From Deltaproteobacteria bacterium RIFCSPHIGHO2_02_FULL_43_33 (GTDB lineage Bacteria; Desulfobacterota; GWC2-55-46; UBA9637): DNA of 53,837 nt. The notes beneath the pieces were generated by a model that was given only the letters and a program-made list of their open reading frames with translations, made no database searches and had not been told where the DNA came from. Position 1 is the first letter of the stretch; the number at the start of each line of letters is the position of its first letter. This document shows, piece by piece, positions 2,830 to 48,521 of the stretch. Position numbers and translations under genes: made by a program. The stretch spans positions 1 through 53,837 of the forward strand of contig MGRL01000118.1 in assembly GCA_001798165.1 (NCBI GenBank), given 5' to 3'.

Positions 2830-3729
2830 ATGGACAAACTAAAACCAATAAAAATCGGCAATATCAAAATCGGGGGCCTGACCCCGAATGTATCTATCGG
2901 GGGCAATGCCCCTTTTGTTTTAATAGCAGGACCGTGTGTAATAGAGGGCGAGAAAACAACCCTTGCTGTTGCCGCAAAACTAAAGGCTATTGCAGCCAAG
3001 CTCAAAATCCCGCTCATATTCAAGGCGTCCTATGACAAGGCTAACAGGACGTCGCTTCAATCATACAGAGGGCCTGGGCTTTATGCAGGGCTTGAAGTAT
3101 TAGCAGAGGTAAAAAAGAGGTTTAATCTGCCGATCCTTACTGATGTCCATTGTAAAGAGGACGTTCAAGAAGTTGCCATGGTTGCAGATATAATACAAAT
3201 ACCCGCATTCCTTTGCAGGCAGACAGATTTGATAATAGAGGCTGCAAACACAGGCAGGGTTATCAATATTAAAAAAGGCCAGTTCCTTGCGCCGTGGGAT
3301 GTCCGGCAGATAATTGACAAGGCTGTATCAACAGGAAATAGAAATATAACTATCACGGAAAGAGGCGCATCCTTTGGTTACAATAATCTTGTGGTTGACT
3401 TCAGGTCAATCCCTCTGATTAGGGAAATTGGCTATCCTGTGATATTTGACGCAACGCACAGCGTTCAGATTCCCGGCGGCCTCGGGAGTGCGTCAGGCGG
3501 GCAAAGAGAGATGGTGGAATACCTTGCAAGGGCTGCTGTTGCCGTAGGTGTTGATGGTATATTTATGGAGGTTCATTCAAACCCCGCTAAGGCGCTCTGC
3601 GACGGCCCGAATTCTTTAGCACTGAAAAGCCTCCCTGCGCTGCTGAAACAGTTGAAGGAAATAGATAGGGTGGTGAAGGGGAATGTTAGAGGTCGGAGGC
3701 TGGAGGTTAGAGGAAAAAAATCAAAATAA
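2830..3729 (+). CDS. kdsA: 3-deoxy-8-phosphooctulonate synthase
   Basis: VLIAGPCVIEGE, FKASYDKANRTS, FDATHSVQIPGG; N-terminus and C-terminus both contain repeat-derived sequence. Confidence 0.95.
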   Translation: MDKLKPIKIGNIKIGGLTPNVSIGGNAPFVLIAGPCVIEGEKTTLAVAAKLKAIAAKLKIPLIFKASYDKANRTSLQSYRGPGLYAGLEVLAEVKKRFNLPILTDVHCKEDVQEVAMVADIIQIPAFLCRQTDLIIEAANTGRVINIKKGQFLAPWDVRQIIDKAVSTGNRNITITERGASFGYNNLVVDFRSIPLIREIGYPVIFDATHSVQIPGGLGSASGGQREMVEYLARAAVAVGVDGIFMEVHSNPAKALCDGPNSLALKSLPALLKQLKEIDRVVKGNVRGRRLEVRGKKSK

Positions 3730-26465: not shown

Positions 26466-28037
26466 ATGAATTTTAATAAGAAATATTTTTTTATAACATT
26501 ATTTGGCATAACCATATTCCGTCTCTGGTATATATGGCAAGGCCCTTTTGACCTTTCACCTGATGAGGCGCATTATTGGGAATGGTCAAGAAGGCTGGAT
26601 TTGAGCTATTATAGCAAAGGCCCTATGGTTGCGTATATCATAGCCTTTTTCACAAAGGTTGGAGGCAATAATGAGTTTTCGGTAAGAATTGGGGCAGTGA
26701 TTATTGCTGCTGTTGTTTCTATACTCCTCTATATTATGGCGCGTGATATATTTAATAGTGAAAGGGCTGGTTTTTTTGCTGGTTTGCTTCCGTCTATTAC
26801 GCCGCTTTACGCTGCAGGCTCTGTTCTTATGACAACAGACGCCCCGCTTATACTTTTCTGGGGTATTGCCATATATTTTTTTAGAAAGGCGCTGCTTACA
26901 AGAAAGGAGAGATATTGGTATCTTACGGGTATTGCTATTGGCATAGGTCTTCTCAGTAAATATACAATGGCTATTATCTTTCCGTGCATCATGCTTTATC
27001 TCTTTTTTTCAAGGGATGATGGATTCTGGCTTAGAAAAAAAGAGCCATATATTGCTGGTATTATAAGTTTCTTTATCTTTAGCCCGGTAATTATATGGAA
27101 TAGCCAGCAGGGCTGGGTTACTGTGAGGCATACTATGGGCCAGGTGCATGTAGAGAAAGGCCTGATGCTATCAATAACAGCGCTTATGGAATTCTTAGGT
27201 TCTCAGCTTGGTCTGATAACACCGTTCATCTTTATTGCTGTTATATATAGTATCTTCAGGGTAACTATTATTGGTTTTAAGGAAAAGCAGAGAGATTATA
27301 TGCTCCTCTTTTTTACCTCAGTGCCTGTGTTTGTATTTTTCCTATTTAAAAGTCTTCAAGCAGAGGTTGAGGCAAACTGGGCAGCCCCTGCCTATTTTAC
27401 TGCATTTGTTACTATTGGTATTTATGCTTGTCCCGTTATGCCTTCAAACGGGAATGGTGTTTATGAACGTTTTTATGGTAAAAAACTTGTCCCGTTATGC
27501 CTTCAAACGGGATTGGTTAAACTGGGATTTGCAATAATGCTGGCTGCCGGTTTTCTATCAACAACCGTTACTTACTTCCCAGGTATTCTTAAGATAGTGG
27601 GAATGGAAGACCTTGAGGCAAAAGCGCCGATTAATCGTATTATAGCTTGGAAAGAGCTTGGCTCAAATGTGGGTTATATTTATTATGACATGGCAAGAAA
27701 AAAAGAAACATTTATCTTTAGCGACACCTATCAGATGGCCAGCGAGCTGGCATTTTATGTTCCAGATAATCCTATTACCTATAATGTAAATCTTGGCAAC
27801 AGAAGAATGAACCAATATGATATATGGGGCGGTTTAAATTCACAAAAAGGTAACGATGCTATTTATGTGAAAGGTGGAGATGCAGCGATTGATATTATGG
27901 TTAAGAATGCATTTAAGAAATGCAGGAGAGCGCCGCTCTTTAAGGCATATAGAGGTGATTTATTAGTAAGAAAGGCTACAATATACCGCTGCTATAACTT
28001 CAAAGGTATATCTGAAAAAGAGGTTCATGTTTATTAG
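26466..28037 (+). CDS. ArnT/PMT-like glycosyltransferase family 39 (multi-TM)
   Basis: GPFDLSPDEAHYWEWSRRLDLSYYSKGPMVAYII. Confidence 0.9.
   Translation: MNFNKKYFFITLFGITIFRLWYIWQGPFDLSPDEAHYWEWSRRLDLSYYSKGPMVAYIIAFFTKVGGNNEFSVRIGAVIIAAVVSILLYIMARDIFNSERAGFFAGLLPSITPLYAAGSVLMTTDAPLILFWGIAIYFFRKALLTRKERYWYLTGIAIGIGLLSKYTMAIIFPCIMLYLFFSRDDGFWLRKKEPYIAGIISFFIFSPVIIWNSQQGWVTVRHTMGQVHVEKGLMLSITALMEFLGSQLGLITPFIFIAVIYSIFRVTIIGFKEKQRDYMLLFFTSVPVFVFFLFKSLQAEVEANWAAPAYFTAFVTIGIYACPVMPSNGNGVYERFYGKKLVPLCLQTGLVKLGFAIMLAAGFLSTTVTYFPGILKIVGMEDLEAKAPINRIIAWKELGSNVGYIYYDMARKKETFIFSDTYQMASELAFYVPDNPITYNVNLGNRRMNQYDIWGGLNSQKGNDAIYVKGGDAAIDIMVKNAFKKCRRAPLFKAYRGDLLVRKATIYRCYNFKGISEKEVHVY
27427..27453. repeat. 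27-bp palindromic repeat copy 1 (CTTGTCCCGTTATGCCTTCAAACGGGA)
   Basis: Identical to 27486..27512. Confidence 0.92.
27486..27512. repeat. 27-bp palindromic repeat copy 2
   Basis: Identical to 27427..27453, offset 59 nt (not a multiple of 3). Confidence 0.92.
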
Positions 28038-33453: not shown

Positions 33454-34275
33454 TCCGCCCCTGTTTTTATGTATCACCATGTAAATCAGAATAAGGGCGA
33501 TATGGTTACAGTAAGCCCCGATGTATTTGAAGCACAGATGCGGTTTTTGAAAGAGGCAGGGTATAGAACATTGAACGCTGATGAGTTGGTTGCCTTTGCC
33601 GGTGGGAACCTTGCAATAAAAGAAAAAGCTGTAGCCATTACATTTGACGACGGTTATCTTGATAATTATGTTTATGCCTTTCCTATTTTAAAAAAGTATA
33701 ACATTAAGGCAATAATCTTCTTGGTTGTTGATTGGGTGGAAGAGGCGTCAAACAGAGTCAGGAGCCAGAAGCCTGCCCCCGAATGTATCTATCGGGGGTC
33801 GGGAGTCAGGAGTAATACAATACCGATTCCGTCTCACCATGAAGGCAAAAATATGATAGCAAGAGGCCATACCCATAAAGTTATTATGAACTGGGATATG
33901 ATAAAGGAGATGCAGAAAAGCGGCTTAATAGAATTTTATTCTCATACCATGAGCCACAGGAAGTGTGCTGAATTGTCAGGTGATGAACTGATAAAAGAAC
34001 TTAAAGATTCAAAAAGAATTATAGAGGAAAACCTGAATACACCGTGTCCGTATCTCTGCTGGCCAAAAGGGTCGCATAAAGAAGATTCTATTGAAGCGGC
34101 GAAAGAGGCAGGGTATAAGGCATTGTTTACAACAAAGAGGGGCATAGTTAAAAAAGGCTCTGATAGGTTTTCTATAGAGCGGATTGTTGTGAAAAATAAT
34201 ATTGGCTGGTTTAAAAACAGAGTGCGGATTTATACGAGTCCGCTGCTTTCAAAAATATATCTTGCAATAAGATGA
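33448..34275 (+). CDS. Polysaccharide deacetylase (NodB domain); ATG 33448 preferred
   Basis: VAITFDDGYLDNYVYAFPILKKYNIKAIIFLV; FYSHTMSHRKCAELS. Confidence 0.88.
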   Translation: MRSAPVFMYHHVNQNKGDMVTVSPDVFEAQMRFLKEAGYRTLNADELVAFAGGNLAIKEKAVAITFDDGYLDNYVYAFPILKKYNIKAIIFLVVDWVEEASNRVRSQKPAPECIYRGSGVRSNTIPIPSHHEGKNMIARGHTHKVIMNWDMIKEMQKSGLIEFYSHTMSHRKCAELSGDELIKELKDSKRIIEENLNTPCPYLCWPKGSHKEDSIEAAKEAGYKALFTTKRGIVKKGSDRFSIERIVVKNNIGWFKNRVRIYTSPLLSKIYLAIR

Positions 34276-38852: not shown

Positions 38853-40156
38853 TGCCGGCTAAACGAGTTCTCATTTTAGATACAGGCAAAGAATGGGGTG
38901 GCGGGACCAACAGCCTCCTTGAACTTCTAAAAAGGTTTGTCCCCGAAGGCAGTAATCGGGGAATTGATACAAGCAAATATCATTTTACAGCCTTATTTTA
39001 TAACAACTATAAAAAGGGGAATGAGTCGGACATAAAGACGGAGATTGAGAAACTTGGGATAGATTTTTTTATTTTGGAACAACAGGGGCAATCTTTTTTG
39101 TCAAAGATGCTCAAAGAGATCATCAGGGTTCTATTCTTTTTCGGCAGAAGGCTTAAAAAATATTTCATATTCTTGATTGACTATAAATTCAGAATTGAGC
39201 CGAATGCGGTAAAGATAGCTGAGATTTTAAAGAGTCAAAACGTGAACATGCTTTATATGAACAATCAACCCTCGTCAAACCTTGAAGGCATTATAGCGGG
39301 AATGGCATTGAACCTGCCGTGCATTCAGCACTCAAGGGTAGATGTAAGATTGAATAAGGTTGAAGCGGATGCGGTAAATAATTGCATTTCAAAGGTGATA
39401 TGCGTATCAAACGGCGTCAGGGATAGCCTTGTAAGCAGCGGGGTTTTGCCTGAAAAATGTATTGTTGTTTACAACGGCATTGACCCTGATATGAAACCCA
39501 TCACTTCTGCTTCAGCAATCAAAAGGATGTATGGTATAAATGACAATGAGATTTTAATAGGCACGGTTGGTTCTCTTATAAAGAGGAAGAGGATAAATGA
39601 TTTGATTAAGGCATTGGATAAAATGCAGACGCAAGAGGGTAGCGTTGCCCTTTATGGGCAACGGAAATCATTGGGGATAAACCCCAACGTTACAACTAAA
39701 ATGGGGCAAGGGGGGATCAAGTGTATGATTGTCGGCGACGGTACTGAAAAAGAAAATCTCCAGAGAGAGGTTTTAAGAATGGGATTGCAGGACAGGGTTA
39801 TTTTTACAGGTTTTCAAACTGATGCAATTTCATACGTTAATGCCATGGACATATTTGTGCTGCCGTCTGAAAATGAGGGTCTGCCGAGGGTTATACTTGA
39901 GGCAATGCTTATGGCAAAGCCTGTGGTCGCATATAATGTAACCGGCCCTTCAGAGCTTGTTGTTGACGGTGAAACCGGATTTTTGGTTTCAGTAAAGGAG
40001 ACTGATATGTTTGCAAATGCCCTATCGAAACTTGTGGCTTCGGATAATTTGAGAAGAGGAATGGGTGAAAAGGGTAGAATGAGGGTGATAGAAAGGTTTG
40101 CAATTGATAAATATGTAAATGGCGTTAGTAATATATTTGAAGAGGTTTTAGGATAA
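38852..40156 (+). CDS. GT4 glycosyltransferase with repeat-derived insertions
   Basis: VVYNGIDPDMKP; GTVGSLIKRKRINDLIKAL; LPSENEGLPRVILEAMLMAKPVVAYNVTGPSELV. Confidence 0.92.
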   Translation: MPAKRVLILDTGKEWGGGTNSLLELLKRFVPEGSNRGIDTSKYHFTALFYNNYKKGNESDIKTEIEKLGIDFFILEQQGQSFLSKMLKEIIRVLFFFGRRLKKYFIFLIDYKFRIEPNAVKIAEILKSQNVNMLYMNNQPSSNLEGIIAGMALNLPCIQHSRVDVRLNKVEADAVNNCISKVICVSNGVRDSLVSSGVLPEKCIVVYNGIDPDMKPITSASAIKRMYGINDNEILIGTVGSLIKRKRINDLIKALDKMQTQEGSVALYGQRKSLGINPNVTTKMGQGGIKCMIVGDGTEKENLQREVLRMGLQDRVIFTGFQTDAISYVNAMDIFVLPSENEGLPRVILEAMLMAKPVVAYNVTGPSELVVDGETGFLVSVKETDMFANALSKLVASDNLRRGMGEKGRMRVIERFAIDKYVNGVSNIFEEVLG

Positions 40157-41308
40157 GTGATCTATATAATATTGACCTATCTGTTTTCACCGCTTATTTA
40201 TATCCTGCTCTTCTTTAGAAAAAATAAGACAGAACGGGTTTTAGTAATCCAGACCGCCAAGATCGGCGACCTAATCTGCTCCACGCCTGTTTTCAGGGCA
40301 ATTAAAAAGAAATATCCGGATGCGCATCTGTCTGCGCTTGTAAATCCTCTTGCCAGAGGACTGCTTGAATATAATCCGTATATAAACGAAATAATCTCTT
40401 TAGACAACGGCTTATATAAAGGATTTACAGGCAAGATGTGGCTGGCAAAACTGTTTCGTAATGGAAGGTATGATATTGCAGTGTCTCTTAACCCTAATGT
40501 TCCGTTTACCCTTGCAATGTTCTGGGGGCTTATTCCTGTAAGGGTTTCTCTTATGCCGGATCCCCGCTTAAAACCTGCTGGGACAAGTTTTTCAGGAATT
40601 ACTTATAGATTCGCATCAATGTTTTCTACTCATCTTGAAAAACATATCAGAGGCAGGCTTGTCGCAGAGACATATATGGAAATGCTGAAGGCAATTGGTA
40701 TAGGTGATAAGTATATTTCAAAAGATGTTTTTAAATCGCCTGACGCTGATGATAAAGTTGAAAAGTTTTTAAAATCCGCAATCCGCAATCCGCAATCCGC
40801 AATCAAAATCGGCCTTGCGGTTACAAGCGGAAACAGGATGAAGGAGTGGGGCGCCGAGAAAATGGCGGCCATTGCGGACAGGTTAATAAGAGAGTTAAAT
40901 ACATGCATAGTGTTTATCGGCTCTGAAAAAGACAGAGATATCTCTAATAAAATATTGAGCATTACAGGGCGCAAAGATATGATAATAGATGCGATTGGCA
41001 AGTTTAATCTCTCTGAGCTTCCAGCGCTCGTTCAACGCTTATCGCTCTTTATAGGTGTTGATACCGGAATTACCTATATGGCAGATGCATTGAATGTGCC
41101 GCTTGTTGACATTGCCGGGCCATCTGATATGGAAGACCAAAGGCCGACAGGCAGAAATGTTATAATCATACAGAAAAAAGATATTGCATGTGTTCCATGC
41201 TCTCACACATTTCATGCACCCTACGCATGCAGATACGGACATAGGGAATGTATAGCGAGTATTACCGTAGAGGAGGTTTTTGAAAGTGCTTCAGAACTTT
41301 TGGCTTAA
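40157..41308 (+). CDS. GT9 heptosyltransferase family protein (GTG start)
   Basis: RVLVIQTAKIGDLICSTPVFRAIKKKYP; GVDTGITYMADALNVPLVDIAGPSD; CVPC…CRYGHREC. Confidence 0.9.
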   Translation: MIYIILTYLFSPLIYILLFFRKNKTERVLVIQTAKIGDLICSTPVFRAIKKKYPDAHLSALVNPLARGLLEYNPYINEIISLDNGLYKGFTGKMWLAKLFRNGRYDIAVSLNPNVPFTLAMFWGLIPVRVSLMPDPRLKPAGTSFSGITYRFASMFSTHLEKHIRGRLVAETYMEMLKAIGIGDKYISKDVFKSPDADDKVEKFLKSAIRNPQSAIKIGLAVTSGNRMKEWGAEKMAAIADRLIRELNTCIVFIGSEKDRDISNKILSITGRKDMIIDAIGKFNLSELPALVQRLSLFIGVDTGITYMADALNVPLVDIAGPSDMEDQRPTGRNVIIIQKKDIACVPCSHTFHAPYACRYGHRECIASITVEEVFESASELLA

Positions 41309-48258: not shown

Positions 48259-48521
48259 TTCAATCACCTTTCCCAGTTAGAAAGTTGAAGAGCCTCGCAG
48301 CAATTTGAGATATTATATGGTAGTCCATAATAGAATTGACATAAAACAAAAATCTCCCCATGCGGTCATTCCCGCAGGTTTTTAGCGGGAATCTGGTTTT
48401 ATTAACACCATATCCCCGATAAAGGCATTCGGGGATGACAGATTTATCTTGTCTATGTTGTTACTATTATGGACTGATTAGTATATGGCCGTAGCTTTCT
48501 AACGGGGCTTTCTAAAGGGGC

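Follow-up and report, generated by a model that had tools for sequence, protein, structure and literature searches.

Results and discussion

The 21-bp palindrome shared by a kdsA gene and a polysaccharide deacetylase gene of Deltaproteobacteria bacterium RIFCSPHIGHO2_02_FULL_43_33 is, with a probability of roughly 85% on the sequence comparisons presented here, the hairpin of a 27-bp mobile REP-like repeat that inserts without target-site duplication and lengthens the encoded proteins by nine residues. The window, i.e., the whole stretch of DNA analysed (53,837 nt, contig MGRL01000118.1), belongs to a genome of 2.19 Mb in 126 contigs (94% complete). The genomes that were compared are metagenome assemblies, and copies were read from the sequence stretches around pattern matches. 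In the window, CCCCGAATGTATCTATCGGGG is found exactly at 2882-2902 and 33777-33797 (both +), with a shuffle expectation of 0. As the preliminary description had proposed, the two copies are read in different frames (LTPNVSIGG in kdsA, PAPECIYRG in the deacetylase), and the shared unit is the DNA rather than a peptide, as indicated by the covarying hairpin stem and by the reading of copies in several frames. Its small repeated unit was also borne out, but the extent is 27 bp, of which the 21-bp palindrome is the hairpin; the similar left flanks that it had pointed out (GCCTGA and GCCTGC) are part of the element, namely its 5' tag CYTG. The term palindrome is apt for the inverted arms, but the symmetry is imperfect, with 6-bp perfect arms (7 bp in the deacetylase copy) around a 9-nt loop.

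Copies within the window

The kdsA gene (3-deoxy-D-manno-octulosonate 8-phosphate synthase; 2830-3729, +) carries the element, consisting of tag CCTG and hairpin, at 2877-2903 (+); the first stem pair of this copy is A:G, leaving a 6-bp stem. In the polysaccharide deacetylase gene (PF01522; 33382-34275, +), the element occupies 33772-33798 (+) within an array of GTCAGGA-type heptamers. Further copies lie beyond this initially described pair: one with a TTTG tag and a CCCCGA stem at 38936-38962 (+) in a family-1/4 glycosyltransferase gene, adding the residues FVPEGSNRG; one with the stem CCCGTT/AACGGG at 27427-27453 (+) in a PMT-family glycosyltransferase gene, followed in the same gene by a second copy in another frame at 27486-27512 (+); and one at 40561-40587 (-), antisense inside a heptosyltransferase-family gene (40157-41308, +). 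Lastly, an intergenic CCCCGA-N9-TCGGGG hairpin lacking the CYTG tag is present at 48413-48439 (-); positions 48414-48434 (-) form a third match to CCCCGAATGTATCTATCGGGG, with 3 mismatches, and this hairpin is probably a related or decayed copy.

Other repeats occur in the same surroundings. Between 48371 and 48434, an intergenic ATTCCCGC..GCGGGAAT hairpin, a second repeat type, lies beside the untagged CCCCGA hairpin. Arrays of GTCAGGA-type heptamers run in frame inside genes, where they encode VRSQKSE-type peptides, at 33742-33815 of the window and at two further loci (a BioA-like ORF, L022, and a ThiD-like ORF, L024). These arrays often host the 27-bp element and recall heptanucleotide tandem repeats that have been described in other settings.

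Empty sites in orthologous genes

The insertion is delimited by orthologs that lack it. About 100 KdsA orthologs, including that of a same-genus genome (G001), read IGG-x-x-PFVLIAGPC without the nine residues, so that LTPNVSIGG is extra, as had been suspected; N-termini of equal length in orthologs without the repeat, which would speak against an insertion, were looked for in this set, and the claim survived. At the nucleotide level, the same-genus kdsA reads AAAATCGGGGGCAATGCCCCT, and the window is identical to it apart from exactly 27 additional base pairs. In the deacetylase ortholog of another genome (G005), the heptamer array is likewise present but the 27 bp are missing. The orthologs of other interrupted genes were fetched by one concatenated query and then aligned; presence or absence of the 27 bp, or of the nine amino acids, relative to empty orthologs was found in this way for TopA, RsmH, FolC, a beta-ketoacyl synthase, a glycosyltransferase, and an N6-methyltransferase. 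The glycosyltransferase copy at 38936-38962 is present in G001 and G006 and absent from G002-G005, and in the PMT-family gene the inserted residues are missing from two orthologs. It is thus the empty sites that show insertion into two unrelated genes, as first claimed; the pair of identical copies did not by itself amount to direct evidence. A loop with a function specific to kdsA was rejected, as the segment is absent from orthologs and present in unrelated genes.

The boundaries of the 27 bp are unambiguous at topA, the glycosyltransferase, and the ketoacyl synthase, and at these three sites no target-site duplication was found. In kdsA, the junction can be placed only to within 9 bp, since ATCGGGGGC, the end of the element, recurs in the target there. 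A 9-bp target duplication, which the occurrence of ATCGGGGGC on both sides in kdsA might imply, was rejected since the other sites show none. The same feature bears on an origin by replication template switching or gene conversion between hairpins, without enzyme-encoded transposition: the empty kdsA site already held the last 9 bases of the element, and one copy (at L308) is nested within the loop of another. However, the inserts in topA, the glycosyltransferase, and the ketoacyl synthase have the exact length and tag although their sites do not resemble the element, and such an origin is considered improbable.

Two observations concern related genomes. The topA insertion is common to two genera (G000 L240 and G002 L169; approximately 94% identity) while other family members are without it, and this pattern of sequence identity suggests that the filled allele may have spread by gene transfer. 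In addition, the KdsA N-terminus at G004/L026 is identical to that of JACRNJ01, a groundwater 'Deltaproteobacteria' metagenome genome of the same family.

Anatomy of the 27-bp element

The unit comprises a 4-nt tag (C-Y-T-G), a 7-bp stem, a 9-nt loop, and the 7-nt returning stem arm, with the consensus CYTG, Y-CCC-N3, loop A-K-G-N-N-T-N-N-A, and N3'-GGG-R. Most copies were gathered with the general pattern CYTGY-CCC-N3-AKG-NN-T-NN-A-N3-GGG, in which the inner stem positions were left free. At these positions, complementary variants recur (CCCCGA/TCGGGG, CCCCGC/GCGGGG, CCCTGA/TCAGGG, CCCTGC/GCAGGG, and CCCGTT/AACGGG), and Watson-Crick pairing at the four variable stem pairs holds in 65, 68, 75, and 74 of the 75 tagged copies of this genome, respectively, a complementarity that was never attained in 5000 shuffles. 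This near-perfect covariation identifies the hairpin as the object that is conserved. Its loop measures 9 nt in 40 of 41 family-like perfect hairpins, and as DNA the element hairpins have stabilities of -6 to -8 kcal/mol. The T and the G of the tag are each 100% conserved in the tag-selected set, a conservation that is partly built in because the tag entered the collecting pattern; a tag-blind listing of the flanks also returned a recurrent GCYTGY 5' of the hairpin, with the tag in roughly 60% of cases. The bases 5' of the element favour A-A-G.

Copy number and distribution

The genome-wide search for CCCCGA/TCGGGG palindromes that the preliminary description had recommended returned 31 occurrences of CCCCGA-N9-TCGGGG vs 0 for a reversed control pattern; together with the shuffles, this led to the rejection of a chance repeat. 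With up to 2 mismatches allowed, the tagged general pattern gave 107 matches (60 + 47) in this genome, whereas the control gave 1 (0 + 1), and at least 91 element copies were collected from the 2.19 Mb. The tagged pattern was matched in 11 of 11 genomes of the order, and the other ten contain 11-105 occurrences of CCCCGA-N9-TCGGGG each. Elsewhere in the class, 0-3 copies are the rule, except in four genomes of one family with 14-33. As to carriage by phages, a strict element match was found in only 2 viral contigs.

Some copies are part of larger arrangements. A flank of the form AAAGCCTGCCCCTGA..TCAGGGgattgcgttt recurs beside element copies at seven loci (L295, L300, L305, L306, L312, L323, and L325), which suggests a longer repeat carrying the 27-bp element there. 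Composite insertions are also seen, in which the CYTG element adjoins other REP-like hairpins within one gene (L146/L247 in dxr; L155).

Host genes and reading frames

Since 27 bp equal nine codons, insertion preserves any reading frame, and as most frames are also stop-free, genic insertions add nine residues. Pfam- or ortholog-recognised genes, 32 in number, host 34 of the 91 collected copies (29 sense and 5 antisense), and the remaining ones lie in unverified ORFs or spacers. All three sense frames are used, with peptides of the PAPExxxRG type being commonest, followed by the GLPPNxSIGG and CPRMxLSG types. Many of the hosts are housekeeping genes; those in this genome include UvrC, TopA, PriA (two copies), PolX, RsmH, TilS, CysS, SelB, Dxr, FolC, and KdsA, and antisense copies lie in the genes for GlyS, a HemW-like protein, and ComEC. 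In relatives, copies were found in genes for CarB, RpsA (ribosomal protein S1), SecA, and MurE-like and ArgJ-like proteins, and in other ORFs, in some of which the copy may fall outside the true start.

Tolerance in essential genes would be explained if the inserted segment were removed or skipped during expression, by intein-like removal or ribosomal bypassing. This appears extremely unlikely, as the intragenic copies in recognised genes keep the frame open and, wherever an empty ortholog allows comparison, account for exactly 27 extra nt; moreover, we know of no excision or bypass signal for the element. A regulatory or RNA element kept for its function, such as a terminator, an attenuator, or an mRNA-stability hairpin, would fit both the stability of the hairpins and the sense-strand preference of the intragenic copies, which at 29:5 exceeds what open frames predict (198 sense vs 176 antisense). 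It is nevertheless judged very unlikely: the same sites are empty in orthologs, the host genes are unrelated, a U-tract is absent, and an Rfam search of the window at gathering scores gave no match at the element, the only hits being RNase P and tRNAs.

For KdsA, the structure modelling that had been suggested yielded an AlphaFold2 model with a mean pLDDT of 91 and a barrel mostly above 90. In it, the insert precedes the catalytic barrel and lies where strands 7-9 and 21-23 are joined by a loop of low confidence. The 267-residue A. aeolicus KdsA aligns only from query residue 29 and has no N-terminal hairpin, so this hairpin is dispensable in the family, and the model suggests that the nine-residue loop may be tolerated.

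Possible routes of movement

Copies of the 27-bp element stand inserted after purine-rich sites (about RAR^) without target-site duplication; if the element is mobile as proposed, genic insertions could survive where the site tolerates a loop, as the N-terminal beta-hairpin loop of KdsA may do. The hairpin might be recognised as single-stranded DNA by an enzyme of the HUH type or another type, and the element would presumably be selfish, bringing the host gene no benefit. Tagged-hairpin insertion without target duplication resembles the single-stranded transposition of Y1 HUH enzymes (IS200/IS605 and the RAYT group).

The element might then be a classical REP mobilised in trans by a RAYT (a Y1 HUH transposase), with the tag in the role of GTAG. 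The 4-nt unpaired 5' tag next to a hairpin and the single-stranded type of insertion without target duplication agree with this, and the window's genome has four Y1_Tnp genes. However, 34 Y1_Tnp loci of these genomes, covering 103 kb, contain only 4 element copies, which is near the background density; GTAG hairpins, by contrast, are found on the flanks of several of these Y1 genes and act as an internal positive control. Furthermore, four genomes that carry element copies (G008, G019, G024, and G043) have no PF01797 match, and one of these (G024), which is 100% complete, has 119 tagged matches at up to 1 mismatch. RAYT mobilisation is thus not supported by neighbourhood or phyletic presence and is regarded as unlikely, and no mobilising enzyme or matching transposase for the 27-bp element was found by these two approaches. 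With the Y1 link failing, the mobilising enzyme would be of another kind, act from elsewhere, or have been lost. Separately, at L025:1054-1900 a Y1 (RAYT-like) gene is interrupted and flanked by several GTAGGGCAGGGCTTCAGCCCTGC hairpins (peptide VGQGFSPAL), which makes this locus of the same genome a canonical GTAG REPtron.

A more far-reaching proposal is advanced tentatively, with the odds somewhat against it: the element may represent a class of tagged-hairpin mobile DNA separate from GTAG/RAYT and CGTC REPs, copied by a non-Y1 enzyme, whose nine-codon length enables it to colonise protein genes, including essential ones, across the whole order. If true, such elements would keep supplying proteins with nine-residue insertions.

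The best-known in-frame palindromic insertions are those of Rickettsia, and the 27-bp element is a clear example from an unrelated lineage that metagenomes have made known. It comes with exact empty sites, a sharply bounded 27-bp unit, and presence or absence among close relatives. Two questions are thereby opened to testing: by what route REP-like hairpins move when no RAYT is associated with them, and how proteins accommodate random insertions of nine residues. For annotation, the warning is that extra residues in such genes are to be read as mobile DNA, not as functional loops.

Comparison with known repeats

GTAG and CGTC REPs are short hairpins with an unpaired tag at one end, present in tens to hundreds of copies, and REPs within ORFs, including DNA-repair and tRNA-synthetase genes, have already been reported (Di Nocera et al. 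2013, PMC3733652). REPs are mainly extragenic; of the 91 copies collected here, 34 are in recognised genes and the others in unverified ORFs or spacers. The 27-bp element shares several general properties of REPs: it lies within the 20-40 bp expected of a hairpin-forming repeat and has a 7-bp covarying stem, it has an unpaired tag, CYTG, directly 5' of the stem (the tag being part of the search pattern), and it is present in many highly similar copies per genome (31 strict, at least 91 by the broader count). It differs from GTAG REPs, which have a GTAG (or GTRG) tag and flank a Y1_Tnp gene, in carrying CYTG instead and in being near background density beside such genes. CGTC REPs have a stem of 8-9 bp, a loop of 4-5 nt, and, like the element, no associated transposase gene (PMC3733652); the element departs from them by its CYTG tag, 7-bp stem, and 9-nt loop. 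It is further distinguished from REPs as a fixed 27-bp unit, found mostly as single copies, with exact empty sites. MITEs are likewise small non-autonomous repeats with inverted symmetry, but the 27-bp element has neither a target-site duplication (three sites) nor long terminal inverted repeats.

The Rickettsia palindromic elements (Ogata et al. 2000/2002, as summarised in PMC10969869 and PMC3733652) occur in frame in many unrelated protein genes, and those of the RPE-1 type are about 150 bp long and encode a conserved peptide. The 27-bp element is like them in lying in frame in unrelated genes with empty orthologs. It differs from the RPE-1 type in its length of 27 bp, in the nine residues that it contributes, and in its use of three sense frames as well as antisense.
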